Shown piece after piece: positions 6,445 through 54,644 of a stretch of DNA of 61,248 bases. This DNA comes from Siphonobacter sp. BAB-5405 (GTDB lineage Bacteria > Bacteroidota > Bacteroidia > Cytophagales > Spirosomataceae): NCBI RefSeq assembly GCF_002872335.1, contig NZ_NJAG01000030.1:234-61481 (forward strand), written 5' to 3'. The first letter of the stretch is position 1. Every line of letters starts with the position of its first letter. The notes beneath the pieces were generated by a model. The model was not told the DNA's origin, did no database searches, and was given only the letters and a program-made list of their open reading frames with translations. The position numbers and the translations under genes were made by a program.

Positions 6445-8394
6445 TTAAGGATTCGCTTTAGCCGGAGCATTTTTCAGCGAATTAATCCAGGCTGCGATTT
6501 TTAACGCATCCCCTTTCGGTACCTGCGGCATGGGGGGCATTTCCGTCGCGTAACCCGGCCAGTTTTGCGGCTTAGGATTATAGATCAGATCCACAATTTT
6601 CTCGTTGGAGTAATTGCGTTTGGCCACGTCCCGGTACGCCGGTCCTACCTGACGCTTGTCGGCGTTGTGACAGGCCAGACAGGTATATTTCGAAAGTAGC
6701 GGCTTCACTTCTTCGTACGAAGGCACTTTCGCAACGGCAGTTTTGCCGTTTTTCGCTACGGTTTCTTTCGTTGTTGTGGGCTTCTTCACCGTACTCGCTA
6801 CTGCCGAAGTTTTCGTACTGGCTTCCGAAAGACTCAGTTTTTCACCCGCCGGGATATTATTCAGCGTGTAGTAGGCATTGGGGTGTACCAGACTGAACTT
6901 CGTACTTTTTTCGCGAATGCCATCGAGCGTCAACTGGTGGATGTAGTACTGACGCAGGTTATCCACGATGATACGGGCCTTGAGACCATCACTGGATACT
7001 TTCACGCCTTTCACCGCATTTTCCACTTCATTGATCGTGGGGCTACCATAGGTGGAGTGGTACTTGTAGATAAAGCTCTTCACCTTGTAGCTGGCCAGAT
7101 CTTCGGCACTGGCCGCATCAATCGGTTGCGTAAACTCGACTTCGAAGCCGTCCGGCATGGCCCGTACCGCCTTCATTTCGAAGGGTGTTTTACCGGTCCA
7201 TACGAGTCGTTGCAAGCCTTCGTTGGCTTCGCCAGCAGAACCCCAGCCCCGGTTGGTTTCACCCACGAACAGCGAATGATCTTTACCGAAAGCCATCCGC
7301 AGTACACCCGACTGGAAGCCGGAACGGAAGTCGAAAGCCACACCCTGGTATTCACCGTTTACTTGTTCCATGAACACTCGCATGATTTTCGACTGTCCCT
7401 GATCACCAATCAGCATTTGTCCGGCGAAAGGTCCGAATGCTCCCTGCGTATCATCACTGATGATCTCCGAGTTCGAAATGCCCAGTACGCCATGGGGTAA
7501 CCATACGGCGGGCAACTGAATTTCGGGGAACTTCTTTTTGGCTTCAAACAACAACAGCGGATTCTTCTCCGACGCATCGTTTTCGGGTTTGATGGCCCGG
7601 CCATTGTTGTCGCGGCGACGGCGTTCGTCGTACGTCTTGTAGAATTCTTCCTGCGAAAGTTTCACGGGTGAGTTCGGCAGCGACGTCCAGCGTAAACCTG
7701 CCGGATGCCCTACGAACGCTCCTTTTTTCACGTGCCATACGCCCCCTGAACCCATCCAGTCACCCTGGTTGTCGGTATAGAACAGATCGCCGTTGATCAT
7801 ACCCAATCCGCACGGCGAACGCATCCCGGTTGCCCAGGGCTCCATTTTTCCGTCGGGAGAAATTTTCATGATCCAGCCGCGGTAGGGTACTTTACTTTCC
7901 CCCCGCCACCATTCTTCGTCCCCGAAGGCCACGTTGGCACTTACGAAGAAGCTGCCATCGGGAGCCACTTTCGGCCCGAAGCTGTACTCGTGGTAGTGAC
8001 CAGAAATTGGCCAGGCGTATACCGTCTGGTACTTGTCGGCTTTTCCGTCCCCGTTGGTATCAGTCAGTCGGGTCAATTCACCGCGTTGAGCACAGTAGAA
8101 TGAACCGTCCTTGTACACCAAACCCAGGATTTCGTGCAGACCGCTGGCAAACTTGCGGAAGAAAGGTCGTGGGCTGCTGGGGTTTTCAATGACCCATACG
8201 TCTCCCCGACGCGTGGATACTGCCACATCGCCGTTGGGCATACTGGTTACGCCACCAATTTCGAGCACAATGCCTTCGGGCGTACTCACTTTAACAATTT
8301 TGTAGAGATCGCTTTCGGCCGGAGAACTGTCCTGAGCCAGGGCCGCCGTAGTCAGGCCCAGTCCGAGAAGCGTCGTATGAAGAATCCGTTTCAT
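6445..8394 (-). CDS. Exported PQQ-type propeller dehydrogenase with cytochrome c domain
   Basis: The 649-residue protein has a signal peptide (MKRILHTTLLGLGLTTAALA). A large beta-propeller region of the sugar-dehydrogenase/membrane-bound dehydrogenase type follows (about 30-420, with repeats such as GLGMINGDLFYTDNQGDW and LPHGVLGISNSEII), then an Ig-like segment (about 425-520) and a Thr/Lys linker. The C-terminal monohaem cytochrome c has CLACH at 572-576 with candidate axial Met619/Met622 (MPPM). Such fusions oxidise a sugar or alcohol in the periplasm and pass electrons to the respiratory chain; the substrate is unknown. It is the last gene of a minus-strand set, 52 bases after the DUF1080/PA14 gene. 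Confidence 0.78.
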   Translation of the reverse strand: MKRILHTTLLGLGLTTAALAQDSSPAESDLYKIVKVSTPEGIVLEIGGVTSMPNGDVAVSTRRGDVWVIENPSSPRPFFRKFASGLHEILGLVYKDGSFYCAQRGELTRLTDTNGDGKADKYQTVYAWPISGHYHEYSFGPKVAPDGSFFVSANVAFGDEEWWRGESKVPYRGWIMKISPDGKMEPWATGMRSPCGLGMINGDLFYTDNQGDWMGSGGVWHVKKGAFVGHPAGLRWTSLPNSPVKLSQEEFYKTYDERRRRDNNGRAIKPENDASEKNPLLLFEAKKKFPEIQLPAVWLPHGVLGISNSEIISDDTQGAFGPFAGQMLIGDQGQSKIMRVFMEQVNGEYQGVAFDFRSGFQSGVLRMAFGKDHSLFVGETNRGWGSAGEANEGLQRLVWTGKTPFEMKAVRAMPDGFEVEFTQPIDAASAEDLASYKVKSFIYKYHSTYGSPTINEVENAVKGVKVSSDGLKARIIVDNLRQYYIHQLTLDGIREKSTKFSLVHPNAYYTLNNIPAGEKLSLSEASTKTSAVASTVKKPTTTKETVAKNGKTAVAKVPSYEEVKPLLSKYTCLACHNADKRQVGPAYRDVAKRNYSNEKIVDLIYNPKPQNWPGYATEMPPMPQVPKGDALKIAAWINSLKNAPAKANP

Positions 8395-50663: not shown

Positions 50664-50957
50664 TTATTGCCGCTCGCGGTGACGATCTTCGAGAATGGCA
50701 ATGACCTCGTCAAGATCGATATTGCGGTCTTCGAGCAGGATCAGGTAGTGAAACAGCAGATCTGCTGCTTCGTTTTTGAACAGCTGGTCATCGTTGGACA
50801 TGGCTTCGATGACCAATTCAACGGCTTCTTCACCCACTTTCTGGGCAATTTTATGCGTACCACGGGCGAACAATTTAGCCGTATACGAACCTTCACTGGC
50901 GGATTGTTTCCGCTCCCGGATAATAGCTTTTAACTGATCTAAGAATTCAACGGCCAT
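50664..50957 (-). CDS. hisE: Phosphoribosyl-ATP pyrophosphatase
   Basis: The 97-residue all-helical enzyme hydrolyses PR-ATP to PR-AMP and pyrophosphate, the second step of histidine synthesis. The MazG-like motif is seen in KVGEEAVELVIEA followed by NEAADLLFHYLILLEDRNID, with the conserved acidic residues that bind Mg2+. The length fits standalone HisE. It is the last gene of the his operon, 60 bases after hisI, and is not fused to it. No clear terminator follows. Confidence 0.94.
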   Translation of the reverse strand: MAVEFLDQLKAIIRERKQSASEGSYTAKLFARGTHKIAQKVGEEAVELVIEAMSNDDQLFKNEAADLLFHYLILLEDRNIDLDEVIAILEDRHRERQ

Positions 50958-51017
50958 ACAGAATGGGCAAGGTTGCCTTTAAAATGGGATAAAGTAGGAC
51001 GGAAGAAGCAAACGCTC

Positions 51018-51332
51018 CTACCGGGGATTTTCTTCAAAAAAACAGGTATCCGCTCCCGTATGACACACGGGGCCCACGGGTTCTACCTTAATCAACAGCG
51101 TATCCTGATCGCAGTCGATACGGATTTCCCTGACGTGCAGAAAATGGCCGGAGGTTTCGCCCTTGGTCCACAGCCGATTTTTGGTACGGCTGAAAAAGGT
51201 TACTATCTGGTCGGACTCCGTTTTGGCGTAGGCTTCTTCGTTCATAAAGCCCAGCATGAGCACTTTATTCGTCTGAACGTCCTGGATGATGGCCGGAATC
51301 AGACCGCCGGCTTTTTCAAAATTCAGTTTCAT
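51018..51332 (-). CDS. hisI: Phosphoribosyl-AMP cyclohydrolase
   Basis: The 104-residue Zn/Mg enzyme opens the purine ring of PR-AMP in the third step of histidine synthesis. The marker sequences are LMLGFMNEEAY, TKGETSGHFLHV, the metal-binding aspartates RIDCDQDTLL and the zinc ligands PVCHTGADTCF. The protein is a little shorter than many HisI homologues at its N terminus but has all motifs. It lies 9 bases after hisF and is followed by a separate hisE. Confidence 0.95.
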   Translation of the reverse strand: MKLNFEKAGGLIPAIIQDVQTNKVLMLGFMNEEAYAKTESDQIVTFFSRTKNRLWTKGETSGHFLHVREIRIDCDQDTLLIKVEPVGPVCHTGADTCFFEENPR

Positions 51333-51341
51333 AAGACTTGA

Positions 51342-52184
51342 TTACAGTCGCATCGTGACGCCCTTTTCCTGGAGGTACATTTTCAAAGGCTGAATACCAA
51401 TTTCCCGGAAGTGGAAAATACTGGCAGCCAGTCCGGCATCGGCTTTTCCGGTCGTGAATACTTCGTGGAAATGTTCCATTAACCCCGCTCCACCCGAAGC
51501 AATCACGGGAATACTGAGTTGTCCGGAAACCGCCGCCGTTAGCTCCAGAGCAAACCCGGCTTTGGTACCGTCGGCGTCCATGGAAGTCAGCAGTATTTCA
51601 CCCGCTCCACGTTCCTGAGCTTCTTTCGCCCAGGGCAAGGTACGCAGCTCGGTAGCCTTACGGCCCCCATGCGTGTGTACGACGTGCTCGGTCGTCAGGC
51701 GAATTTCGTGGGTACTGACACGTTCGTTACCAAAACGGCTGGTCGTGGTTTCCTGATGGCTCACCACATCGCTGGGTACGGAAATCTCCCGCGTATCAAT
51801 CGCTACGATGATACACTGCGAACCGAACTGCAAAGCCAGTTCGTCGATGAGTTCAGGCCGACGGACGGCCGAAGAATTGATTGAAATTTTATCGGCTCCG
51901 GCGTTAAGTAAGGCCGATACATCGGCTACGGAACTGATACCGCCGCCAACGGTAAAAGGAATATTCACGTGACGAGCTACATTACGAACCAGCTCTACGA
52001 GTGTTTTCCGATTATCGACGGTTGCCGTAATGTCGAGAAATACCAGTTCGTCGGCTCCCTGTTCGGCGTACAAAGCCCCCAGTTCTACCGGATCTCCGGC
52101 ATCCCGCAGGTTCACGAAATTCGTTCCTTTGACCGTACGTCCGTCCTTGATGTCCAGGCACGGAATGATGCGTTTGGTTAACAT
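51342..52184 (-). CDS. hisF: Imidazole glycerol phosphate synthase, cyclase subunit
   Basis: The 280-residue TIM-barrel uses ammonia from HisH to turn PRFAR into imidazole glycerol phosphate and AICAR. The catalytic aspartates are Asp11 (CLDIKDG) and Asp130 (IIVAIDTR), at the same numbers as in Thermotoga HisF. Normal HisF has about 250-258 residues. The extra length is an insertion of about 27 residues between Asp130 and the conserved THGGRK at 171-176, rich in Ser, Thr, Glu and Arg ([19 protein letters not shown]). The loop may alter contact with HisH or the substrate. Spacing to hisA is 6 bases. Confidence 0.94.
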
Positions 52185-52190
52185 AGTGGC

Positions 52191-52913
52191 CTAGTTTTCA
52201 ACGAAGGTACTTAAATCTTTCAGGGAAACCCGGCCTTCGTAAATGGCCTTCCCAACAATCACGCCGTATACGTTCATTTCTGCCAGCTTCTCCAGATCGG
52301 CTAGCGAACTCACACCACCCGAGGCAATCACCCGCAGGGCTGGCGACTGCTGCTGAAGCTTCTCGTACAGATCAAAGCTGGGGCCCTGTAAAAGGCCGTC
52401 TTTGGCGACGTCGGTCGAAATGATGTACTGAATGCCTTTTTCTTCCCACTGCTTCACGAAATCATACACCCACAACTGCGTTCCTTCTTCCCAGCCACTC
52501 ACGGCGATGCGTTCGTTTTTGGCGTCGGCTCCGAGAATCATTTTCTCCCCGCCGTACTGACTGAGCCAGCTGGCAAACAAATCGGGATTTTTTACGGCAA
52601 TGCTCCCGCCCGTCACCTGCGTTGCTCCGCTTTCGAAGACGATTTTCAGATCCTCGTCCGATTGTACCCCACCACCAAAATCAACCTGCAAACGCGTCTG
52701 TGTAGTGATGGTTTCGAGTACTTTCCAGTTAATGACTTTCTTAGCTTTTGCTCCATCGAGGTCCACCAGATGCAGACGTGTCAGCCCGGCTCCTTCAAAC
52801 TCCTTGGCTACTTCCAGCGGATGGGCGTTGTAGACGGTTTTCTGCGAATAATCGCCCTGCGTCAATCGAACGGCTTTGCCTTCAATCAAGTCGATGGCGG
52901 GAATAATAAACAT
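52191..52913 (-). CDS. hisA: ProFAR isomerase
   Basis: The 240-residue TIM-barrel isomerises ProFAR to PRFAR. The catalytic aspartates Asp8 (IIPAIDLIEGKAVRL) and Asp130 (ILGADAKNERIAV) are present, as are the two half-barrel phosphate sites (GGGVQSDEDLK, ASGGVSSLADL). The length is normal. It sits between hisH and hisF with gaps of 6 bases on each side, so the genes are tightly coupled. Confidence 0.96.
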   Translation of the reverse strand: MFIIPAIDLIEGKAVRLTQGDYSQKTVYNAHPLEVAKEFEGAGLTRLHLVDLDGAKAKKVINWKVLETITTQTRLQVDFGGGVQSDEDLKIVFESGATQVTGGSIAVKNPDLFASWLSQYGGEKMILGADAKNERIAVSGWEEGTQLWVYDFVKQWEEKGIQYIISTDVAKDGLLQGPSFDLYEKLQQQSPALRVIASGGVSSLADLEKLAEMNVYGVIVGKAIYEGRVSLKDLSTFVEN

Positions 52914-52919
52914 AGCTAC

Positions 52920-53504
52920 TTAGAGTTTCAGGAAGTTTTCAAGAATGAGCTGCCCTTCTTTTCCGCTGATTTCAGCGTGAAACTGAGCGGCGTAGAAATT
53001 GTCTTTGTGCAGCATCGCCGAAAAGGGCACGACGTAATCGCAACTGGCTACCGTGTACTCGCATACCGGAGCCGCGTAACTGTGGACAAAGTACACGTAC
53101 GGATGGGGCGTCATCCCCTCCGTCAGCGGCGACTTCAAATCGTACAGGTTATTCCAGCCCACGTGCGGTACCTTGAGTTCACCCGCCGGAAAACGTCTGA
53201 CGTCCACCGGAAAAATGCCCAGTGCCTGCGTCTGGTTTTCCTCCGAATACTGGCACATCAACTGCATACCCACGCAGGTGCCCAGTACGGGTTGCTGGAG
53301 CGTAGGAATAACGCGGTCAAGGCCCTTTTCCCGCAGGTACGCCATGGCGGTTGAGGCTTCGCCAACGCCCGGAAAAATGACTTTATCGGCGGTACGGATC
53401 TCGGCCTCATCGTCCGTCCAGAGGTACGATGCCCCGATGCGTTCGAGAGCATACATGACGCTCTGTACATTGCCGGCGTTGTATTTGATAATGACGGTTT
53501 TCAT
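52920..53504 (-). CDS. hisH: Imidazole glycerol phosphate synthase, glutaminase subunit
   Basis: The 194-residue class I glutamine amidotransferase delivers ammonia to HisF. The nucleophile is Cys77 (LGTCVGMQLM), with His176 and Glu178 completing the triad (QFHAEIS, where most homologues have FHPE). It is the first gene after the attenuator: its ATG is 27 bases from the end of the terminator T tract, so it is directly exposed to attenuation control. hisG, hisD, hisC and hisB are not in the window. Confidence 0.95.
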   Translation of the reverse strand: MKTVIIKYNAGNVQSVMYALERIGASYLWTDDEAEIRTADKVIFPGVGEASTAMAYLREKGLDRVIPTLQQPVLGTCVGMQLMCQYSEENQTQALGIFPVDVRRFPAGELKVPHVGWNNLYDLKSPLTEGMTPHPYVYFVHSYAAPVCEYTVASCDYVVPFSAMLHKDNFYAAQFHAEISGKEGQLILENFLKL

Positions 53505-53530: not shown

Positions 53531-53563
53531 AAAAAAACGCCCGATTCGGTGAATCAGGCGTTT
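53531..53563 (-). terminator. Attenuator terminator of the his operon
   Basis: On the minus strand AAACGCCTGATTC (53563-53551) pairs with GAATCGGGCGTTT (53547-53535) around an ACC loop, 13 bp with one G-U, and seven T residues follow (53537-53531). It lies between the leader peptide and hisH. Its 5' arm also pairs with the segment at 53620-53612 (TGAACAGGC), and the two foldings exclude each other. Confidence 0.9.
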
Positions 53564-53611
53564 GTATCTGTTATTCGGTGTTTGCTAGACCATAAAACCG
53601 GAATCACATCA

Positions 53612-53620
53612 GCCTGTTCA
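53612..53620 (-). promoter_or_regulatory. Antiterminator arm of the his attenuator
   Basis: TGAACAGGC (minus strand, 53620-53612) overlaps the leader stop codon. It can pair with GCCTG-A-TTCA (53559-53550), 9 bp with one bulged A, and this takes the 5' arm of the terminator. A ribosome at the stop codon would cover it, while one stalled on the His codons would leave it free. Confidence 0.75.
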
Positions 53621-53665
53621 GCGGAGCCATACATGGGAATGATGATGAAATACGGTGCAATTCAT
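53618..53665 (-). CDS. His operon leader peptide
   Basis: The 15-residue frame reads MNCTVFHHHSHVWLR, with four His (codons 7, 8, 9 and 11), all CAT. The His run together with the following terminator/antiterminator is the classical plan of attenuation: a shortage of charged tRNA-His stalls the ribosome on the His codons and allows read-through into hisH-hisA-hisF-hisI-hisE. The start codon lies 5 bases after the -7 element, so the mRNA may begin at or next to the ATG. Function is inferred from sequence; no direct evidence is available. Confidence 0.85.
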   Translation of the reverse strand: MNCTVFHHHSHVWLR

Positions 53666-53669
53666 ACGG

Positions 53670-53677
53670 CAAAAGTA
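53670..53677 (-). promoter_or_regulatory. TAnnTTTG -7 element of the his leader
   Basis: The minus strand reads TACTTTTG, identical to the tRNA-Phe and RDD -7 elements. A TTTC at 53694-53691 stands in the -33 position with a 13-base spacer. The ATG of the leader peptide is at 53665, only 5 bases downstream. Confidence 0.65.
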
Positions 53678-53729: not shown

Positions 53730-54644
53730 TTAAAACAGACTCATCTGATCGACTTTCGGTAAAAACTTAGGTAGCTTCAGTGCCAAGCCCAGATGCGTAT
53801 TCAATTCCTGAATCCAGTAGTTGGACAACTCGGGAGCACACTCACTCTGTCCACAGTGAATGAACGCGTAGAGTTCCTCCAGACCCTCCTGCTGCCATTT
53901 TTTAAGGCGTTGAATCCATTCGTCGGTACGGGTATAATCCGTGAAATGCAGTTCATTGCCCACAAAACGGATCACAGCTTTGGGAACCGTCAGCGTCTGA
54001 TGCAGCACATCCCGGCGGCCCGACACATCGGTAATCACCGCCGCGTGCCCCGCCTCCCGCAGGATTTCACAGGTACGGGCCCAGATGCGGGGATTGGCAA
54101 ACCAGTCCGGATGCCGGAATTCCACGGCAATCGTCATTCCTTCCGGAATGAGTTTCAGGAATTCCACCAAGCCTTTGCCTTTTTGCGGCGTATAAGCCGG
54201 CCCCAGTTGCAGAAACGGAATGCCTAAATGATCGCCCAGTTTCAGTAACTGCCGACAGAAAAATTGCGTCGCGTCTTCTACACCAAGCAGTTCCTTTTCG
54301 TGACTGATGGCTTTGGGAAATTTGGGACAGTATTTGAAACCCGGCGTAGCCTCTTCCAGCCAACGCTCGATGGTTTCGTCGTTGGGCATCTGGTAATGGG
54401 TACCGTTGAGTTCGATGGTATTGAACTGCTGGGTGTAGTGAGCCAGTGCTTCTTTATCCTTCATGGCCGAAGGATAGATTTTGCCCAGCCAGCTTTTTTC
54501 CATCCAGACGGGGCAACCCACATACGCGGGCAAGGGATGAGCCACCGGCTGGCCCGACAATACCTGCATATTCAGGGGCGAGTCGGCGGGAAGCGTAAAA
54601 TTGATGGTATTGATTTGACCGGGTGAAACTTTACCAAAGTCCAT
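53730..54644 (-). CDS. DUF72 (YecE-like) protein
   Basis: The 304-residue protein has the DUF72 TIM-barrel-like fold: YVGCPVWMEKSWLGKIYPSA at the start, the conserved NTIELNGTHYQMP, the EFRHPDWFANP segment and the end motif HCGQSECAPELSNYW. Members of the family are widespread but have no proven activity. The length is within the normal range. The his promoter overlaps the region just behind its stop codon. It is preceded on the same strand by recX after 47 bases. Confidence 0.9.
   Translation of the reverse strand: MDFGKVSPGQINTINFTLPADSPLNMQVLSGQPVAHPLPAYVGCPVWMEKSWLGKIYPSAMKDKEALAHYTQQFNTIELNGTHYQMPNDETIERWLEEATPGFKYCPKFPKAISHEKELLGVEDATQFFCRQLLKLGDHLGIPFLQLGPAYTPQKGKGLVEFLKLIPEGMTIAVEFRHPDWFANPRIWARTCEILREAGHAAVITDVSGRRDVLHQTLTVPKAVIRFVGNELHFTDYTRTDEWIQRLKKWQQEGLEELYAFIHCGQSECAPELSNYWIQELNTHLGLALKLPKFLPKVDQMSLF

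Follow-up and report, generated by a model that had tools for sequence, protein, structure and literature searches.

The region before hisH in Siphonobacter sp. BAB-5405 very likely holds a ribosome-mediated transcription attenuator of the hisHAFIE genes, whose leader peptide would be read from a leaderless RNA. The region belongs to a stretch of DNA of 61,248 nucleotides (the window) that was analysed together with the corresponding upstream regions of related genomes. An earlier note on this DNA had proposed a his-operon attenuator made up of a -7 promoter element, a 15-codon frame with four His codons, an antiterminator arm at the stop codon, a 13-bp terminator and seven T. All these elements have been found again at their places, and the attenuator remains the best reading in view of the recurrence of His-rich leaders in relatives and of the pairing that changes in concert across genera.

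Elements before hisH and the genes behind them

On the minus strand, read 5' to 3', the element TACTTTTG is followed by four bases, a 15-codon open reading frame for the peptide MNCTVFHHHSHVWLR, an antiterminator arm, a terminator, seven T and hisH. The features are as follows:

53670..53677, minus strand: -7 promoter element TACTTTTG, of the TAnnTTTG type, read in the sequence
53665, minus strand: predicted transcription start on the A of the leader AUG, from the 4-nt gap, the spacing in F. johnsoniae and the pyrimidine at -1
53618..53665, minus strand: leader peptide reading frame MNCTVFHHHSHVWLR with its stop codon (ATG at 53665, TGA at 53620-53618)
53633..53647, minus strand: putative sensor His codons 7, 8, 9 and 11 (codon 10 is Ser), read in the sequence
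53640..53648, minus strand: segment 1, His codons, predicted to pair with 53604-53611 (MFE fold; extended duplex -10.2 kcal/mol)
53612..53620, minus strand: segment 2, predicted antiterminator arm TGAACAGGC, overlapping the stop codon (duplex; cross-genus co-change)
53604..53611, minus strand: TGATGTGA, predicted partner of the His codons in a protector stem (MFE fold, duplex energy)
53550..53559, minus strand: segment 3, GCCTGATTCA, common to antiterminator and terminator (duplex prediction)
53535..53563, minus strand: terminator hairpin, segments 3:4, 13 bp with a 3-nt loop (-17.6 kcal/mol; covariation in alignment A1)
53531..53537, minus strand: seven-T tract, read in the sequence, into which the terminator runs
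52920..53504, minus strand: hisH, first gene of the presumably controlled operon (NCBIfam TIGR01855, 188 bits, over the cut-off)
50664..52913, minus strand: hisA, hisF, hisI and hisE, which follow hisH (each with an NCBIfam match over the cut-off)

The antiterminator, TGAACAGGC with GCCTGATTCA, comprises 9 bp with one bulged A (duplex -12.2 kcal/mol), and it is mutually exclusive with the terminator, since positions 53559-53550 are common to both helices. This is the same 9-bp pairing, competing for one segment, that the earlier note had drawn, and its figure of 12 nt from His codon 11 to the antiterminator arm is also correct. The protector stem, formed by the His codons and TGATGTGA, which follows the antiterminator arm, is present in the MFE fold of the window sequence. 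The fold of the 160-nt leader by itself is unremarkable (z -0.57). Between the end of the seven-T tract (53531) and the hisH ATG (53504) there are 26 nt.

The gene order behind the attenuator is hisH-A-F-I-E, with hisG elsewhere in the window's genome. As regards the products, HisF (51342-52184, minus strand) has 280 aa and its 254-position model was matched end to end, which implies an insertion of about 25 residues. HisI (51018-51332, minus strand) and HisE (50664-50957, minus strand) are encoded by separate genes, matching the first and the second half, respectively, of the fused HisIE model, both below its cut-off.

Recurrence of the leader and its distance from the promoter

In the family Spirosomaceae (Cytophagales), hisH is present in 147 of 150 genomes, and 110 of the upstream regions were taken (30 loci plus 80 fetched). 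A leader with at least two His codons, starting 0-11 nt behind TAnnTTTG, was found in 72 of these 110 upstreams, belonging to 20 genera; this is not a random share, because the 37 hisH loci left out are the least similar ones (HisH identity 56-68%, a range into which a few fetched loci also fall). The earlier note had made its reading depend on the His run being kept in relatives and, on the whole, it is kept. The 72 leaders encode 64 distinct peptides, all starting with ATG and carrying two to five His each, at least three in 63 of them, and the first His is codon 7 or 8 in 51. Among the named relatives Siphonobacter is closest by HisH, the others including Spirosoma, Dyadobacter, Larkinella, Flectobacillus, Arcicella, Fibrisoma and Rudanella. 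When the gap was left free between 0 and 30 nt, 70 of the 80 named loci had a leader (at 4 nt in 67, at 3 in two and at 5 in one); these are mostly the same species as in the set of 110, so the count is a check of the method and not independent evidence.

The 36 genera are divided into 20 with the leader, eight examined and without it (g7, g8, g13, g27, g30 and g31, plus g10 and g33, which were represented by shortened contigs only), six outside the sample (g15, g20, g21, g22, g34 and g35) and two without a hisH match (g14 and g25). By the exact rule, 38 of the 110 upstreams lack a leader: three have less than 150 nt upstream, 13 come from genus g31, two have a leader whose motif deviates at one position and 20 have none. 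In the 13 loci of g31, hisH probably lies inside an operon, since a long open frame ends within 81 nt. In one genome (locus L033, genus g3, G067) the leader is absent and TATCTTTG almost adjoins the terminator before hisH, the absence being due either to a deletion or to an assembly error in an incomplete genome (completeness 71). Two loci, L066 (G038) and L081 (G082), have no leader within 450 nt of hisH and carry there, instead, a coding frame and REP-like inverted repeats. We take this frame to resemble a REP-associated transposase.

The strictest feature of these leaders, overlooked by the earlier note, is the fixed 4-nt spacing between promoter and AUG. The gap from TAnnTTTG to ATG is 4 nt in 67 of the 72 leaders, with 37 different spacer sequences, the exceptions being four Dyadobacter genomes with 3 nt and one doubtful case with 5 nt. 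Transcription starts generally have a pyrimidine at -1 and a purine at +1. In fact, a pyrimidine stands at -1 of the ATG in 70 of the 72 leaders (in 46, 38 and 66 at -2, -3 and -4, respectively), as expected for a transcription start on the A of the AUG. The TAnnTTTG motif has been described as the -7 box of the housekeeping sigma factor; this element ends at -5 in F. johnsoniae, where sequences were counted as promoters if 4-5 nt separated it from the start site (PMC6847099). Combined with this spacing, the 4-nt gap would put the 5' end of the RNA on the A of the AUG, which implies that the his leader peptide would be read from a leaderless transcript, starting on the leader AUG.

The gap was also determined for 492 open reading frames of at least 150 aa in the window and the 80 named loci. 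TAHHTTTG is present within 100 nt of 29 of them, and in none of these 29 is the gap shorter than 16 nt, in a control that is unbiased but small. In a larger control with 62 motif-bearing frames, the gap was at most 5 nt in five, four of which come from loci fetched by the gap-4 pattern, L373 (gap 2) being the exception. In Bacteroidota, leaderless mRNAs make up a small minority: in B. thetaiotaomicron 3.7% of the 5' UTRs are shorter than 10 nt (PMC7366714), in F. psychrophilum 5.5% are leaderless (PMC9723704) and in F. johnsoniae the leader exceeds 10 nt in 87% of the transcripts, so that short leaders are not vanishingly rare (PMC6847099). Nevertheless, judging from the sequences, in much of the family (20 of 36 genera sampled) the his attenuator is probably strictly leaderless, with its start codon locked to +1.

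In this context, the trp leaders of the same family are of importance. The trpE upstreams of 30 genomes from 29 genera (L321-L350) contain a short reading frame with WW or WWW in 29 cases, and a terminator-like hairpin of at least 7 bp belongs to 25 of these 29 leaders, the window's genome being among the four without one in the scan. The 4-nt geometry is found in only six of the 29; in 12, TAnnTTTG stands only at other distances (among them the window's genome, with a gap of 21, and L350, where the motif also lies 2 nt before a more distant ATG), and in 11 there is none within 70 nt. The 4-nt rule thus holds for the his leader but not for the attenuators of the family in general. A trp pattern fixed at gap 4, which had matched 34 of 61 genomes, was biased by design and was replaced by this survey of trpE upstreams.

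Since most trp leaders lack the 4-nt geometry, attenuators that are not leaderless are possible in this family, and the his leader could likewise have a longer 5' UTR and be transcribed from another, unrecognised promoter, the TAnnTTTG spacing being then the by-product of a conserved DNA element. Such an arrangement is unlikely, however, because the 37 distinct spacers share one length in 67 of the 72 leaders, the housekeeping sigma factor uses this motif as its -7 box (PMC6847099) and the pyrimidine at -1 is nearly constant. A start on the leader AUG is the preferred reading.

Moreover, two explanations that do without a translated His leader were considered and dropped, the comparative data, the shuffles and the Rfam scan being against them. 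Control by a T-box, a riboswitch or an RNA-binding protein could also use a terminator with an alternative pairing, but it would be very surprising here, given that all 72 leaders open with ATG and keep at least two in-frame His codons. Rfam holds a His_leader family (RF00514), which we take to be the enterobacterial his operon attenuator (E. coli/Salmonella hisL). No Rfam family reached its gathering score in the window leader, in eight leader-bearing relatives or in two hisG loci, the His_leader model and those of T-boxes or other riboregulators remaining below threshold in these leaders. That the hairpin is merely the terminator of the upstream gene (53730-54644), which is on the same strand as hisH and whose transcripts it would end too, next to a His-rich frame arisen by chance, is hardly credible in the face of 64 different His-rich leaders behind a promoter at near-constant distance and of 60 dinucleotide shuffles of the window, none of which contained a His-rich frame with the promoter and hence none with promoter and terminator. 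In these counts, ATG frames of 6-35 codons with at least four His within six codons were scored: the window has two such starts in one frame, one of them also with TAnnTTTG at 3-5 nt and a terminator behind, and the shuffles had a mean of 0.07 such frames and a maximum of two.

Alternative pairing across genera and the proposed switch

The 5' arm of the terminator is of the type GCCTGATTC in Siphonobacter, Flectobacillus and Arcicella, of the type CCCGGTTCTG in Spirosoma, Larkinella, Rudanella and Fibrisoma, and of the type GCCCGATT in most Dyadobacter. The segment just behind the leader stop varies with this arm, GGCAGAAC occurring with GTTCTGCC and AGGAAAGGCT with AGCCTGATTCCT. In terms of energy, segment 2 pairs with the arm of its own genus at a mean of -14.9 kcal/mol, compared with -12.3 kcal/mol over all combinations. 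When the arms were swapped among 13 genera, five of 20,000 permutations were as good as the own pairing (p 0.00025), and three other choices of the segment windows gave 4-6 of 20,000 for 13 genera and 2-4 of 20,000 for 19 genera.

The earlier note had proposed covarying stems in related Cytophagales as a check. Arm and antiterminator do change together across genera, whereas neither the genus of the window nor the Dyadobacter group shows this by itself. In fact, the own pairing of Siphonobacter (g1) ranks 11th of 13 and 12th of 19, no better than with foreign arms, and in the six-genus Dyadobacter group there is no signal of co-change, 7,549-7,606 of 20,000 permutations being as good. In the latter group the antiterminator arm may lie inside the leader reading frame, in the codons of the conserved tail FGRLG, and the alignment of the group contains an 11-pair 1:2 stem formed by codons 5-9, two of them His codons, with GGGTGATGTG and the bases that follow. 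RNAalifold, applied to an alignment (A1) of 33 of the 49 distinct non-Dyadobacter leaders, returned the terminator with nine pairs, four of them changed on both sides, and neither the antiterminator nor the protector stem. The z-scores of the antiterminator in single sequences are modest (mean -1.06, below -2 in 17 of 72 leaders); folding of single sequences thus gives weak support, and it is the comparison among relatives that carries the argument.

A nearly invariant stretch, TGTAATAAGGTTGAATACATAGTAYCCC, lies between leader and terminator in the six genera of the Dyadobacter group, the peptides of which differ (L042, L080, L020, L084, L053, L013 and 13 more leaders of the group; alignment A2, columns 90-119). 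It is outside the terminator and could possibly be a pause site or take part in an alternative pairing with TTGGGTGATGTG.

The elements described can be arranged in the classical three-stem scheme (1:2, 2:3 and 3:4). RNA polymerase would begin with the A of the leader's start codon, and this 5'-terminal AUG would be the loading site of a ribosome. With charged tRNA-His plentiful, the ribosome would reach the stop codon and cover segment 2, leaving segment 3 free to form the terminator (3:4). With uncharged tRNA-His it would stall on the His codons, so that segment 2 could pair with segment 3 and hisH would be transcribed. If no translation took place, the protector stem of the His codons with TGATGTGA, which follows segment 2, and the terminator would both form.

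The position of the antiterminator arm has been compared with this scheme in 51 non-Dyadobacter leaders. In 34 of them the arm of the best duplex starts 16-20 nt from where the last His codon begins, and in 35 it starts 2-6 nt past the stop. Such starts suit the switch: a ribosome stalled on His would leave them uncovered, and one at the stop would cover them. The window's leader is outside these classes: its extended duplex opens 4 nt ahead of the stop, at a distance of 11 nt from His codon 11, and its core arm at the stop itself, 15 nt from that codon. Furthermore, a crude ribosome model was applied, in which 13 nt were covered and at least five bases of the terminator arm paired upstream were scored. 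The 49 distinct non-Dyadobacter leaders were all predicted to be paired with the ribosome stalled, and 25 of the 49 still with the ribosome at the stop, while of 19 leaders in the Dyadobacter group 12 were paired in the first state and nine in the second; longer free RNA favours the stalled state.

Known systems and further amino-acid leaders

Attenuation as such is known, also in Bacteroidota, and Vitreschak et al. 2004 reportedly list Bacteroidetes/Chlorobi. What is apparently new here, as far as sequences can tell, is a leaderless his leader with fixed spacing. The framing of the earlier note, by which his attenuation would be new for a genome of the Bacteroidota type, is thus too strong, attenuators having been reported for the phylum: a study of F. 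psychrophilum found strong indications of leader-peptide attenuators ahead of amino-acid operons (PMC9723704), and Bacteroid-trp (RF01692) is tabulated as a cis-regulatory motif (PMC2864571). These are amino-acid attenuators of the same phylum, for which the relevant parts of the two sources name neither a his leader nor a leaderless geometry (PMC9723704, PMC2864571). Neither a leaderless his attenuator nor a fixed promoter-AUG spacing in Bacteroidota attenuators was found described in the mainly open-access literature searched.

The textbook his attenuator consists of a short reading frame with a run of His codons and alternative terminator and antiterminator structures before the operon (PMC3896937). 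The leader described here is like the enterobacterial hisL in having a short His frame and alternative structures before his genes. It differs in that hisL has seven His in a row, whereas here there are four in 15 codons, apparently on a leaderless RNA; in its place before hisH-A-F-I-E with hisG elsewhere; in its type of promoter; and in having no Rfam match. A leader peptide on a leaderless RNA has a precedent in the trpL (rnTrpL) of S. meliloti, whose RNA begins directly with the ATG of the leader frame (PMC7298713), although that system responds to tryptophan in an Alphaproteobacterium and its start corresponds to one that is only predicted here. In mycobacteria, Cys-rich uORFs upstream of amino-acid genes have been proposed as attenuators (PMC4633059). 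They resemble the his leader as small reading frames ahead of amino-acid genes and differ in the residue, cysteine, and in that leaderless mRNAs are common in mycobacteria (PMC4633059), in contrast to Bacteroidota.

Attenuation needs a ribosome close behind RNA polymerase, and how initiation proceeds without Shine-Dalgarno sequences in Bacteroidota is still being worked out. If the leaderless start is true, loading on a 5'-AUG would bring the ribosome up right behind RNA polymerase with no need of a ribosome-binding site, and the switch would depend both on the charging of tRNA-His and on the capacity of the cell to initiate on leaderless RNAs. A conserved switch with the AUG at +1 would then be a natural and easily measured test of leaderless initiation and of the coupling of transcription and translation in Bacteroidota, a test sharpened by the contrast with the trp leaders of the family, mostly without the 4-nt geometry.

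Leaders were also searched for before other genes and in other groups. A phylum-wide pattern scan matched 172 of 296 genomes, by estimate mostly by chance, and was discarded; among the matches listed, a small number of His leaders could be read, their gaps being 7-10 nt. Upstream of hisG in other Cytophagales families, His leaders occur with gaps of 3-17 nt (12 loci, uncurated, several with multiple starts). A 500-nt scan before hisG of the window's own genome (L221) gave no His leader. Among nine genomes of the family examined at hisG, two Spirosoma (L223, G004; L228, G039) have a second His leader, beginning MISQRATHSPFRHRRHH, before this gene with a gap of 4; both his operons appear to be controlled in these two genomes, since leaders precede both hisH and hisG.

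As regards leucine, a terminator-like hairpin with CCCTTTC was present within about 140 nt upstream of leuA in nine of 30 loci (L351, L355, L357, L358, L359, L363, L366, L376 and that of the window's genome, L371). In L371 a Leu-rich frame ending TLNLSLLILGRTL precedes the hairpin, which makes a leu attenuator likely in the window's genome.
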